From positions 1-45,598 of the IMG/VR virus record IMGVR_UViG_3300000563_000004: 45,598 nucleotides of DNA; one strand, given 5' to 3'. Positions 1,486 through 5,753 of this stretch are shown here, piece after piece. Numbering within the stretch: position 1 is the stretch's first letter; each line of letters opens with the position of its first letter. A program made the translations under genes and the position numbers. The DNA is from a virus. The notes beneath the pieces were generated by a model. That model was not told the DNA's origin, searched no databases, and worked only from the letters and a program-made list of their open reading frames with translations.

Positions 1486-1531
1486 TACATATAACTATGG
1501 CAATGTTTTTGTGGATTTTGTATTTTTTTCA

Positions 1532-1541
1532 GTATTTATAT
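1532..1541 (+). promoter_or_regulatory. late-type promoter motif before the structured RNA
   Basis: TTTTTTTCAGTATTTATAT is a full match to the motif including the upstream T-run and the C-A-G. The next gene starts almost 200 bases away, so the motif appears to serve the structured RNA at 1550-1710, or a long structured leader of the genes from 1728. Confidence 0.65.
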
Positions 1542-1549
1542 TTGCATTG

Positions 1550-1710
1550 TCAGTATAAGACATTAAAACATCGTAAGGGACTTGCGAGTACACGTGTGGA
1601 GCGACAGTAAGACTTCTAACTCTTCGGAGCAGTAAGCAAGTTGCTATGAAGCACGAAGCCCATTTGTCTTTAGCAAATGGGTAGTTCACAATATAGAATA
1701 ACTAAAATAA
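1550..1710 (+). ncRNA. omega-RNA/reRNA-like structured RNA (IS200/IS605 TnpB type), no nuclease gene adjacent
   Basis: This non-coding stretch is richer in G and C than its surroundings and strongly structured. Seen: CCCATTTG (1659-1666) pairs perfectly with CAAATGGG (1674-1681) and is followed by TAGTTCAC. TGCT (1642-1645) pairs with AGCA (1650-1653). ACTTGC (1580-1585) pairs with GCAAGT (1636-1641), in competition with TCGTAAG/CTTGCGA (1571-1577 with 1581-1587). CTC-TTCG-GAG (1620-1629) can form a UUCG-capped hairpin. From memory, the order ATGAAGCACGAAGCCC, hairpin, GGGTAGTTCAC is what the 3' part of TnpB guide RNAs and IS605 right ends look like. If so, the guide would be about 1690-1709. 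No tnpB or iscB lies in the window. Alternatives are a transposon-end scar or a cis-acting leader of the gene at 1728. Boundaries are estimates. Confidence 0.5.
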
Positions 1711-1727
1711 AAGGGTTACTAACTACT

Positions 1728-2093
1728 ATGAGCATTTCTTCAGAAGAAAGAATCGAGCTAAAAAATGAAATTAAAGACGCCGTTGGTGATTTAATCGAAA
1801 ATTTAGAAACCAGAACTTCTAGTCAATTTAATATAATTGATTATAAACTAGATGCTATTGAAAAACAAACCACACGAACTAACGGCAGGTTAAGCGAAGC
1901 CGAATCTAAATTAAAAAATTTGGAAAAAAGTGAAAAAGATCACATACTCAGATGCCCCAACAATCAAAGAATTAGGGAACTGGAAGATGTTACATTAACA
2001 GCAAAAACAATAAAAAGAGTGTTGATTCAGGGTTTGGTTTTAACGGGGATTGTGATGACGATTATTTTGGGTCTTTTTACTTTATTAAATTAA
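1728..2093 (+). CDS. coiled-coil protein with C-terminal membrane anchor (XhlA-like)
   Basis: A 121-residue protein. I chose the ATG at 1728 because the longer in-frame start at 1677 would put 17 codons inside the structured RNA. Residues 5-75 are charged and helical with heptad-like spacing, and CPNNQRIRELE follows. One strong transmembrane segment fills the last 25 residues (LIQGLVLTGIVMTIILGLFTL). This topology resembles XhlA-type phage accessory membrane proteins that work with holins. The gene is six bases from the next membrane-protein gene at 2100, which supports a membrane or lysis role, but no function is proven. Confidence 0.7.
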   Translation: MSISSEERIELKNEIKDAVGDLIENLETRTSSQFNIIDYKLDAIEKQTTRTNGRLSEAESKLKNLEKSEKDHILRCPNNQRIRELEDVTLTAKTIKRVLIQGLVLTGIVMTIILGLFTLLN

Positions 2094-2881: not shown

Positions 2882-2912
2882 TTGCTATTCAAGTTTTTTT
2901 TTCTTATATTTG
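2882..2912 (+). promoter_or_regulatory. Bacteroidota-type promoter (-33 TTG / -7 TATATTTG)
   Basis: TTG (2882-2884), 20 bases, then TATATTTG (2905-2912) matches the Bacteroidota primary-sigma consensus TTG...TAnnTTTG. The helicase ATG is at 2928, which leaves a leader of about ten bases. The same spacing recurs at 20872, 34279 and 38466. It is probably read by host RNA polymerase early in infection. Confidence 0.75.
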
Positions 2913-2927
2913 CAAAAACATCGTTTT

Positions 2928-5753
2928 ATGATTAATGATGAAGTGTTTATTGTATTATGTACGAGGAAAGGAAGGTCTACTTGGTATTATCTTGATTTTC
3001 CGTATAATAAACAATTAGTTTCAAGAATAAGTAATTTACCTAAAGACGAAAGGAAGTTTTTGCCTTCACAAAAACTTTGGTTGGTTAAAATTGGTGGGTT
3101 GCTTGAATTACTACAGTCTTATCGTAAATCCAAAAAAATACATTTTGATTTTGGAGTTGAAGAACATAGACAAACATTTATTGAACTATTAAACAAGCAT
3201 AAAGAAAAAGAAAAGGAAAAACAACAAGCCATTGAGAAGTTGGCTAAAGACAAAAAACATTGGCTTGATTTTAAAAAATATATTGAAAAGAATTATGAAA
3301 AATATTCTGATGAACTACATTCTTACTTAAAACCAGGAATTAGACTTTACAGACACCAAATAACTGCAGCATTGTTTGCTAATAAAGTCAAAAATGCTTT
3401 AATATCTCACGAAATGGGGTTGGGTAAAGCGCAGGATGTTGATTCTAAATTACTTACACCTAATGGTTGGATTAGGATGGGTGATATTCGAAAAGGTGAT
3501 TATGTAATTGGTAGTGATGGTAAACCAAAAAAGGTTTTAGGTGTTTTTCCACAGGGTCTGAAAGATATTTATGAAATTTGTTTCAATGATGGTACATCTG
3601 CAAGGTCATGTGATGAACATCTTTGGAATGTAAATACATATATTCGCAATTGGAGGAAAAATCCTTTCATGACGAAAACTCTTCGTGAAATTATGGATAG
3701 TGGTTTACAGTTTGAAAATGGGAATAATAGGTGGTACATACCGATTGTTAAACCAATCGAATTAGAAGAAAAGAATTTAATAATTAACCCATATGTATTA
3801 GGTTGTTTATTGGGTGATGGATGTATAACCGTAAGAGATAGTATAGGTTTTTCAAGTATTGATAAACAAATTCTAAATGAGATTCAAATAAGATTACCAG
3901 AGAAACATAATTTAGTTATTAACGGTGAATCACATAAAGATTATTATTTAACTGCTGATGGTAGGAATAATTTAATAAATCAAGAATTAAAAAAACTTAA
4001 TTTAAAGGGTTGTAATTCTCATAATAAATTTATACCAAATGAATATAAATTAGGTTCTATATATCAAAGACTTGAAATGCTACAAGGGATATTAGATACT
4101 GATGGACATTCAAGAAAAGATAGTATTGTTGAACTAACTCTTGTATCGAAACAATTAATTAATGATGTTCAGTTTATCGTAGAGTCATTAGGTGGTATTG
4201 GTAGGATTAGTGAAAAATGGGTTAACTATAATAGTGAGAGAAGGTTATATTGGAGAATAAATATAAAACTTCCACCAGAGTTTACACCATTTAAACTTCA
4301 AAGAAAAATTGAAACATTTGTTGCACCAACCAAATATCCACCTAATCGTGCAATTACAGAAGTTAATTATGTTGGAGAAAAAGAAGCACAATGTATTTTA
4401 ATCGATTCGGAAGACCATTTGTACGTAACCGACCACTGTATATTAACTCACAATACTCTTAGTTCAATACTATATGTGGAAATGAATGGTTTTGAAAAAG
4501 TTTTTGTTATAACACCAAATTCATTAAAATTTAACTATTTTGGTGAAGTCGAAAAATTTACGAATAGTAAAGCACATATTGTTGGTTGGAAGAAAAACAA
4601 ATACACAATAGAGGAATCAAAATACATTATTGTTAATTACGAATTCTTCAATACCGGTAAGAAAGAAAAGATGGATGAGAAATGGAAGTCCTTGGGGATT
4701 GAAGTAATTGATTCTTTAGTTTTGGATGAATGTCATCGAATAAAAAACACCAAATCAAATACATATAAGAACTATGTGAGGATATTCAAAGATAAAATTT
4801 TTAGAAACAGTAAAGCAAGTAAGTTGTTTTTGTCTGGTACGCCAGCACCAAACAGGGCATATGAACTTTATACCGTAATGAAAGAAATATCGCCATTGGA
4901 TTTTCCAACAAAAGAATTCTTTTATAATTATTACTGTGGAATGACATATGATTATATGAATGGTTGGGGGTATGTGGTTGATGAAGAAAATACCAAATTT
5001 GAAGAATTATTTCATAAAATCGCACCATACACACACAGAAAAAGAAAATCAGATTTGGATGTCAAACTTCCAGAAAAAACATATCAAAGGGTTTTGTTGG
5101 AAATGAGTGATGCCGAATACAAAAAATATCGTGCAATTGAGGATTCTGTTGTTGATGATATTATGGGTTCGTCTCCGGGAAGGCATTTATCAATAATGGG
5201 CGAGTTAAGACAATATCTATCACAAATAAAAACAAAACCACTATATGGTTTAATTACGGATATTTTAGACAATACCGATGAAAAAGTTGTTATTGTTGAT
5301 GTATATAAAAAATCTTTATATGATTTGAATGAAATGTTTGATGGTGTTGCTGCATTACATACTGGTGACCAAACCGTTGATGAAAGAAATGAAGTTGTTA
5401 AAAAATTTCAAGATAAAAGTAGTCACATCAGAGTTTTTTTGGGGTCAATTCAAACCTGTAATTATGGACTTACTTTAACACAATCAAGTAAATTATTTTT
5501 ATTAACCCTGCCATTTATACCCGGTGAGTTTGATCAGGTTTCCGACAGACTTCATCGAATAGGCCAAAAACAGCCAGTAAACATCTATTCATTGGTTTAT
5601 GATAATACTGTTGACACACATACATATAGTTTGATTGAAAACAAAAGAGAAGAATTGTCGGTTGTAATGGATAATGAAAAATATACAAATCAAACCGTTA
5701 ATTCGGTGTTCGGTGATTTGGTTAAAAAACTACTTAAAGGACATGGGAAGTAA
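2928..5753 (+). CDS. SNF2/HARP-like DNA helicase interrupted by an intein
   Basis: A 941-residue precursor; removing the intein (residues 168-509) leaves about 599 residues. The start is the ATG at 2928, because an in-frame TTG at 2910 lies inside the promoter. The N-terminus (SRISNLPKDERKFLPSQKLW) resembles a HARP domain of SMARCAL1-type annealing helicases. Helicase motifs are I GLGK/T (split by the intein), Ia ITPNSLKFNY, II LDECHRIKN, III LSGTPAPNR, V GLTLTQSSKLFLL and VI DRLHRIGQKQ, typical of the SNF2 branch of superfamily 2. In T4 the comparable remodelling helicase is UvsW. A role in fork reversal or recombination-dependent replication is inferred from the family and from the polymerase gene downstream. 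The product works only after protein splicing. The next gene overlaps its stop. Confidence 0.93.
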   Translation: MINDEVFIVLCTRKGRSTWYYLDFPYNKQLVSRISNLPKDERKFLPSQKLWLVKIGGLLELLQSYRKSKKIHFDFGVEEHRQTFIELLNKHKEKEKEKQQAIEKLAKDKKHWLDFKKYIEKNYEKYSDELHSYLKPGIRLYRHQITAALFANKVKNALISHEMGLGKAQDVDSKLLTPNGWIRMGDIRKGDYVIGSDGKPKKVLGVFPQGLKDIYEICFNDGTSARSCDEHLWNVNTYIRNWRKNPFMTKTLREIMDSGLQFENGNNRWYIPIVKPIELEEKNLIINPYVLGCLLGDGCITVRDSIGFSSIDKQILNEIQIRLPEKHNLVINGESHKDYYLTADGRNNLINQELKKLNLKGCNSHNKFIPNEYKLGSIYQRLEMLQGILDTDGHSRKDSIVELTLVSKQLINDVQFIVESLGGIGRISEKWVNYNSERRLYWRINIKLPPEFTPFKLQRKIETFVAPTKYPPNRAITEVNYVGEKEAQCILIDSEDHLYVTDHCILTHNTLSSILYVEMNGFEKVFVITPNSLKFNYFGEVEKFTNSKAHIVGWKKNKYTIEESKYIIVNYEFFNTGKKEKMDEKWKSLGIEVIDSLVLDECHRIKNTKSNTYKNYVRIFKDKIFRNSKASKLFLSGTPAPNRAYELYTVMKEISPLDFPTKEFFYNYYCGMTYDYMNGWGYVVDEENTKFEELFHKIAPYTHRKRKSDLDVKLPEKTYQRVLLEMSDAEYKKYRAIEDSVVDDIMGSSPGRHLSIMGELRQYLSQIKTKPLYGLITDILDNTDEKVVIVDVYKKSLYDLNEMFDGVAALHTGDQTVDERNEVVKKFQDKSSHIRVFLGSIQTCNYGLTLTQSSKLFLLTLPFIPGEFDQVSDRLHRIGQKQPVNIYSLVYDNTVDTHTYSLIENKREELSVVMDNEKYTNQTVNSVFGDLVKKLLKGHGK
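3429..4454 (+). mobile_element. class 3 intein with LAGLIDADG homing endonuclease (342 aa)
   Basis: An in-frame insertion splits the Walker A motif as MGLGK | intein | TLSS. It starts with Ala rather than Cys or Ser (AQDVDSKLLTPNGW), has Trp in block B (DEHLWNV, residue 233 of the precursor), Cys in block F (AQCILID, residue 489) and Thr-His-Asn at the end (LTHN, 506-509). That is the W-C-T signature of class 3 inteins, in which the block F cysteine starts splicing. Two LAGLIDADG motifs, VLGCLLGDG (from residue 290) and MLQGILDTDG (from 384), indicate an intact homing endonuclease. The +1 extein residue is Thr. Walker A loops are a common intein site because they tolerate no scar. The frame is uninterrupted, so it is probably active. 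Confidence 0.9.

Follow-up and report, generated by a model that had tools for sequence, protein, structure and literature searches.

A solitary guide RNA of the TnpB type (reRNA), a member of a family of stand-alone RNAs, is very probably encoded at positions 1546 to 1689 on the plus strand of the window, the whole analyzed stretch of 45,598 nucleotides from a Bacteroidota phage. TnpB reRNAs are well studied, and most descriptions treat them as by-products of the tnpB transcript. Searches for TnpB (PF07282, PF01385 and a protein search) and for Y1 TnpA found neither in the whole 50,504-base record, which is possibly a fragment of a larger genome. A classical reRNA locus is encoded at the 3' end of tnpB; this one is not, and is therefore described here as a solitary reRNA homologue. 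It is most likely a non-autonomous reRNA gene that was captured by the phage and may serve, in trans, a TnpB whose gene lies elsewhere. The initial annotation had proposed an omega-RNA/reRNA-like transcript at 1550-1710 with no TnpB beside it. This proposal is borne out by homology, covariation and an ISDra2 pseudoknot signature; the feature is real, and its boundaries are better drawn as a scaffold at approximately 1546-1689 followed by a guide that starts at 1690. The locus comprises the following features.

1531-1540, plus strand: late-promoter-like motif AGTATTTATA, which includes TTTATA at 1535-1540; 9 exact copies in the window versus 0.22 expected
1537-1544, plus strand: TATATTTG (TAnnTTTG), resembling a Bacteroidota -7 box and overlapping the late motif; equally spaced in relatives
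1548-1569, plus strand: P0 and 5' tag, UGUC(AGUAUAA)GACA followed by AUUAAAAC; found by the tag-free scan in 4 of 4 solos of this type; 88% paired, one double change
1570-1588, plus strand: P1, equivalent to stem 1 of TnpB omega-RNA, with the apical loop GGA at 1578-1580; 96% paired, double changes at 2 pairs
1593-1655, plus strand: P2 (1593-1597/1651-1655), outer stem of the body; pairing and covariation
1600-1605/1640-1645, plus strand: P3, inside P2; pairing and covariation
1613-1615/1634-1636, plus strand: P4b, inside P2; pairing and covariation
1620-1622/1627-1629, plus strand: P4, inside P2; pairing and covariation
1658-1682, plus strand: P5, terminal hairpin GCCCATTTG..CAAATGGGT of 9-10 bp; double changes at 6 of 9 pairs
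1682-1689, plus strand: right-end 3' motif TAGTTCAC, in which UUC (1685-1687) can pair with GGA (1578-1580)
1690-1709, plus strand: presumed guide AATATAGAATAACTAAAATA, placed by homology
1728-2093, plus strand: downstream open reading frame of 121 amino acids with a hydrophobic C-terminus, whose leader contains the RNA; no family match

The scaffold folds into P0, P1 with its GGA loop, the multi-stem body P2-P4 and the terminal P5, followed by TAGTTCAC. Thus the nested helices, terminal hairpin and 3' motif recognized in the initial annotation are all present. The folding energy (z of approximately -1.9) is weak evidence by itself. Across 19 stand-alone copies (solos), 91.8% of the proposed pairs are standard pairs and double changes occur at 14 pairs. 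The 42 double-change cells observed compare with 14.9 in shuffles, and 0 of 500 shuffles reached the observed value. Controls with slid partners destroyed the structure signal, and the real covariation lies far above them. The stems P2-P4 are 88-97% paired with covariation, P0 is 88% paired with one double change (in L205), and the GGA/UUC pseudoknot is formed in 94.7% of cells across copies, without covariation of its pairs. Homology and covariation together rule out a chance hairpin.

A distant BLAST search of phage records led to Parabacteroides phage PF672P2, where a tnpB element ends in a stretch with 71% identity over 126 nt; the TnpB protein of this element matches three OrfB_IS605/Cas12f1-like Pfam models. 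The last 42 nt share 88% identity with the 3' end of tnpB in another phage contig. This strong homology indicates that the window RNA is a homologue of a TnpB reRNA, or right end. In the omega-RNA of ISDra2, GGA forms a pseudoknot with the UUC of the 3' GUUCA (PMC10097598). The window RNA resembles such IS200/IS605 omega-RNAs (PMC10097598, PMC8612924) in the GGA loop of stem 1, the letters of the GGA/UUC pseudoknot, the GUUCA before the guide, the internal stems, the right-end hairpin and a scaffold of approximately 116-120 nt. Unlike them, it does not overlap a tnpB 3' end and starts with a promoter of its own and an additional, conserved hairpin at the 5' end. No Rfam family was found at the gathering threshold or at E values up to 10, apart from chance snoRNA matches, and the relatives were likewise without a match. 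This says little about reRNAs, since tnpB-attached reRNAs of the same type do not score either. HEARO, which had been suggested as a check, was among the models without a match, and HEARO/IscB omega-RNAs share only the idea of a transposon guide RNA with the window RNA. The initial annotation was to be abandoned if neither a match to an omega-RNA model nor covariation appeared; covariation was found despite the silence of Rfam.

The family is distinguished by a conserved 5' hairpin, GUCAGUA(N)AAGACAUUAAAAC, which is absent from tnpB-attached reRNAs. IMG/VR was scanned with patterns free of this tag, and the same solitary RNA was located in L001 (11 kb, with apparently unrelated head genes), twice in a single 128.5-kb phage (L005 and L006) and in L008 (a 114-kb phage record). 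All four of these window-type solos carry the tag, GTCAGTA(N)AAGACATTAAAAC in the DNA, which the tnpB-attached or relic reRNAs L002, L009, L007, L152, L158 and L164 lack. With L091, a further phage copy added by the tag pattern, at least four other phages hold the same RNA. The six phage copies, including that of the window, have kept the tag and 33-38 of 38 pairs, with a 1-nt loop insertion in one; most host copies have mutations in the tag. The tag is not universal, as a tag-free scan also gave a solitary tagless variant (L252/L253, one sequence), located on a 218-kb phage contig that also holds a TnpB beside another reRNA. Tandem tagless reRNA-like copies were seen at 1756-1900 and 2119-2265 of a tnpB locus of Microcoleus vaginatus (L175). 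The region 13-2163 of L001 encodes a phage head-morphogenesis-like protein with an apparent Hint-type intein, as judged by eye from the translation.

When bacterial genomes were scanned with the exact tag, 56 loci emerged, in Algoriphagus sp. MSM8, Phaeodactylibacter luteus and many cyanobacteria, with a few chance matches (L108 and L134, which lack the RNA); being selected by the tag, these loci give no frequency of the tag among reRNAs. Most cyanobacterial copies display the tag, P1 with a loop of the GGACT type, a terminal hairpin of their own and, immediately upstream, a -10-like box. At the level of sequence, tag and P1 have thus been shown to be common to Bacteroidota and Cyanobacteria. 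A TnpB within the few kilobases examined accompanies only a minority of the 56 tag-selected loci. A covariance model built on 11 solos plus one reRNA linked to tnpB recovered the window as well as 10 Algoriphagus and 9 Phaeodactylibacter places. Under strict filters, a sample of 395 Bacteroidota genomes returned only the query genome and one weak match, which indicates that the family is patchy. A tree of the 19 solos places the window RNA with the Algoriphagus copies and unites the other five phage copies, with moderate support, in a group of their own; this topology suggests at least two separate captures by phages. A special tie to tRNA genes, which adjoin L005, L006 and L112, was rejected: tRNA genes are abundant in the phage with L005 and L006, and none lies close to the other copies. 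In two stretches of that contig, 19 tRNA genes were counted, with the two solitary reRNAs among them.

The late-type motif described directly upstream of the RNA was recovered as AGTATTTATA. Its nine exact copies in the window all lie on the plus strand (positions 110, 1531, 12450, 16724, 21457, 28661, 29296, 33408 and 45107), most of them just upstream of genes. It is probably the late promoter of the window phage, which is T4-like, and is shared with the phage that holds L005 and L006. GTCAG follows 8 nt after the end of the copy at 1531-1540, and a late start would thus fall at approximately 1546, the beginning of the conserved tag and the predicted 5' end of the RNA. The same arrangement of promoter and RNA (GTATATTTATA) is found at L006. 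The overlapping TATATTTG corresponds to TAnnTTTG, the consensus of the Bacteroidota -7 box; this box also stands at an equal distance from the tag in L001, L008, L091 and L198. No convincing -33 box was found upstream of TATATTTG.

The RNA ends 38 nt before the ATG at 1728, and transcription would run on into this frame. The RNA might therefore be a structured leader that regulates or stabilizes the mRNA of gene 1728. However, the other copies are each followed by different sequences (tRNA-like sequence, terminators, unrelated frames), and this explanation is very improbable. The product of 1728-2093 has no relative in IMG/VR. It had been noted that only genes for small membrane proteins lie nearby; this holds by eye for 1728-2093 and 2100-2486, but frames of 108 and 132 amino acids and an SNF2 helicase are also close. 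The helicase gene (2910-5753) is split by an intein that carries a homing-endonuclease domain of the LAGLIDADG type, and a relative in L013 is a frame of 589 amino acids without intein. The nearest phages, approximately 50% identical in the polymerase, have neither the RNA nor the genes that flank it.

In Algoriphagus (six copies) and Phaeodactylibacter (seven copies) the RNA resides inside miniature IS605-like elements of approximately 230 bp. These consist of a TTTATA target, a left-end hairpin GGAGCGTAAAACC...GGATGTAAGCGAC, promoter, tag, scaffold and TTCAC, and several harbor a -7-like box of the TATATTTG type between left end and tag. TTTATA directly precedes the left end in 11 of the 13 host copies, and the remaining ones have TTTATG-like sequences. 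Based on these left flanks, TTTAT(A) is the putative IS605-type target or TAM. The left-end hairpin is present in the 13 host copies (degenerate in two) and in the phage copies L008 and L091. No left end was found in the window, nor immediately upstream in L001, L005 and L006. Thus the window contains the right end of an IS200/IS605 miniature without the paired end hairpins, and TTTATA at 1535-1540 is located just upstream of the RNA but is also part of the promoter motif. No empty insertion site was found; in a sister phage it is predicted to read AGTATTTATA and then directly AATATAGAATAACTAAAATAAAAGG. Ends-only IS605 elements (PATE) are known, e.g. from Halanaerobium hydrogeniformans (PMC7290912). 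The host relatives share with them a left-end hairpin and a whole right end without tnpA or tnpB. Unlike PATE, they carry a promoter and a 5' tag and so resemble RNA genes, and the window copy lacks the left end.

Much of this evidence is also accounted for by a serious rival. A miniature IS605-like element may recently have landed behind a late promoter containing TTTATA and lost its left end, leaving an inert remnant in the form of a functionless read-through leader of 1728. This explanation is plausible, if short of an even chance. The Algoriphagus copies are 91-94% identical to the window stretch, and neither a tnpB nor a target was found. In addition, the genome with L005 and L006 (G402) contains a second IS605 miniature (L236, 5350-5661), which extends from left to right end, is geneless and lies exactly behind AGTATTTATA. 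As TTTATA is part of the motif and this second miniature follows it, such late promoters may be natural landing sites for elements of this type. However, the phage copies have kept tag and pairing across 80-88% identity, four of the six lack the left end but share an identical RNA start point, and the RNA recurs in unrelated phages.

The chances are about evenly balanced that the RNA is a functional guide, i.e. a captured solitary guide-RNA gene loaded by TnpB made elsewhere. This reading is supported by the homology to tnpB-attached reRNAs, the covariation, pseudoknot letters and a 3' end like those of ISDra2, the recurrence of the solitary RNA in unrelated phages and in host miniature elements, the pairs and tag kept by the phage copies, and the register of window and L006 behind the promoter motif. 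Against it stand the missing TnpB and target, the absence of the RNA from distant relatives of the phage, and a divergence of only about 6% from host copies, at which the intact fold could reflect recency. In three larger phage records a TnpB domain is encoded some way off from the solos, so that supply in trans is possible, but the TnpB of G402 (409 amino acids) belongs to another clade, that of G403 (399 amino acids) lacks an adjacent RNA of this kind and the TnpBs in G404 are interrupted. The pairing of a particular phage TnpB with the solos was not supported by clade. The tnpB genes of the Algoriphagus and Phaeodactylibacter genomes are fragments only, a reading limited by contig breaks. 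A TnpB frame of 636 amino acids in L240 (1486-3393) contains approximately 190 extra residues in the middle of the protein without a stop, possibly an in-frame insertion.

The search for matches to the guide that had been recommended found no convincing target. Eleven viral matches to 19 nt of the guide were AT-rich and about as numerous as expected by chance, and TTTATA was in place beside 0 of the 11. An intact scaffold with an AT-rich and apparently useless guide would suit a decoy that titrates host or rival TnpB off its own guides. However, there is no sign of TnpB harming the window phage, the guide position is kept and nothing is specific to a decoy, which makes this role very unlikely. 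Among the three options named initially, a guide for a nuclease acting in trans is thus favored, a domesticated transposon end fits the origin because the relatives are miniature IS605-like elements, and the decoy is left without evidence.

If the RNA is a functional guide, it would have originated from a miniature IS200/IS605-like element with its own promoter, 5' hairpin and reRNA and without tnpA or tnpB. The left end would have been lost from the phage copy, or never been part of it, and the copy would lie directly behind a phage late promoter. During infection a scaffold of approximately 145 nt would be transcribed, running into a guide from the leader of gene 1728. TnpB from another part of the phage, a co-infecting phage or the host could load this RNA and cut DNA bearing TTTAT(A) beside the guide sequence. 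If TTTAT(A) is the TAM, the target would be the element-free allele of the locus in relatives, which would make the RNA a homing or inter-phage device and favor spread or retention of the element. The most comprehensive version is tentative and rather unlikely: a guide-RNA family of Bacteroidota and Cyanobacteria spreading as miniatures without tnpA and tnpB, captured by phages under late promoters and programming foreign TnpB against element-free relatives, as an RNA-only device for homing or inter-phage interference. In phage TldR-gRNA cassettes, gRNAs possibly act in trans from a locus with a broken tldR (PMC13418256). These are likewise phage-borne guide RNAs of the TnpB type with a possible non-transposon role, but TldR guides adjoin tldR and match a host promoter; neither was found for the window RNA, whose record lacks any TnpB-like gene.

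In the literature searched, no family of phage reRNAs was encountered that stands alone, carries a promoter and shares a 5' hairpin, and priority is uncertain. The separation of guide and nuclease is often invoked as a step towards CRISPR-Cas12. The results suggest that TnpB guides move and act independently of the nuclease. The shared 5' tag offers a handle for finding such RNAs, and the solitary phage copies are concrete loci at which use in trans, decoy or homing roles can be examined. If true, the existence of a family of reRNAs that bring their own promoter and move without tnpB would imply independent evolution and spread of guide and nuclease.
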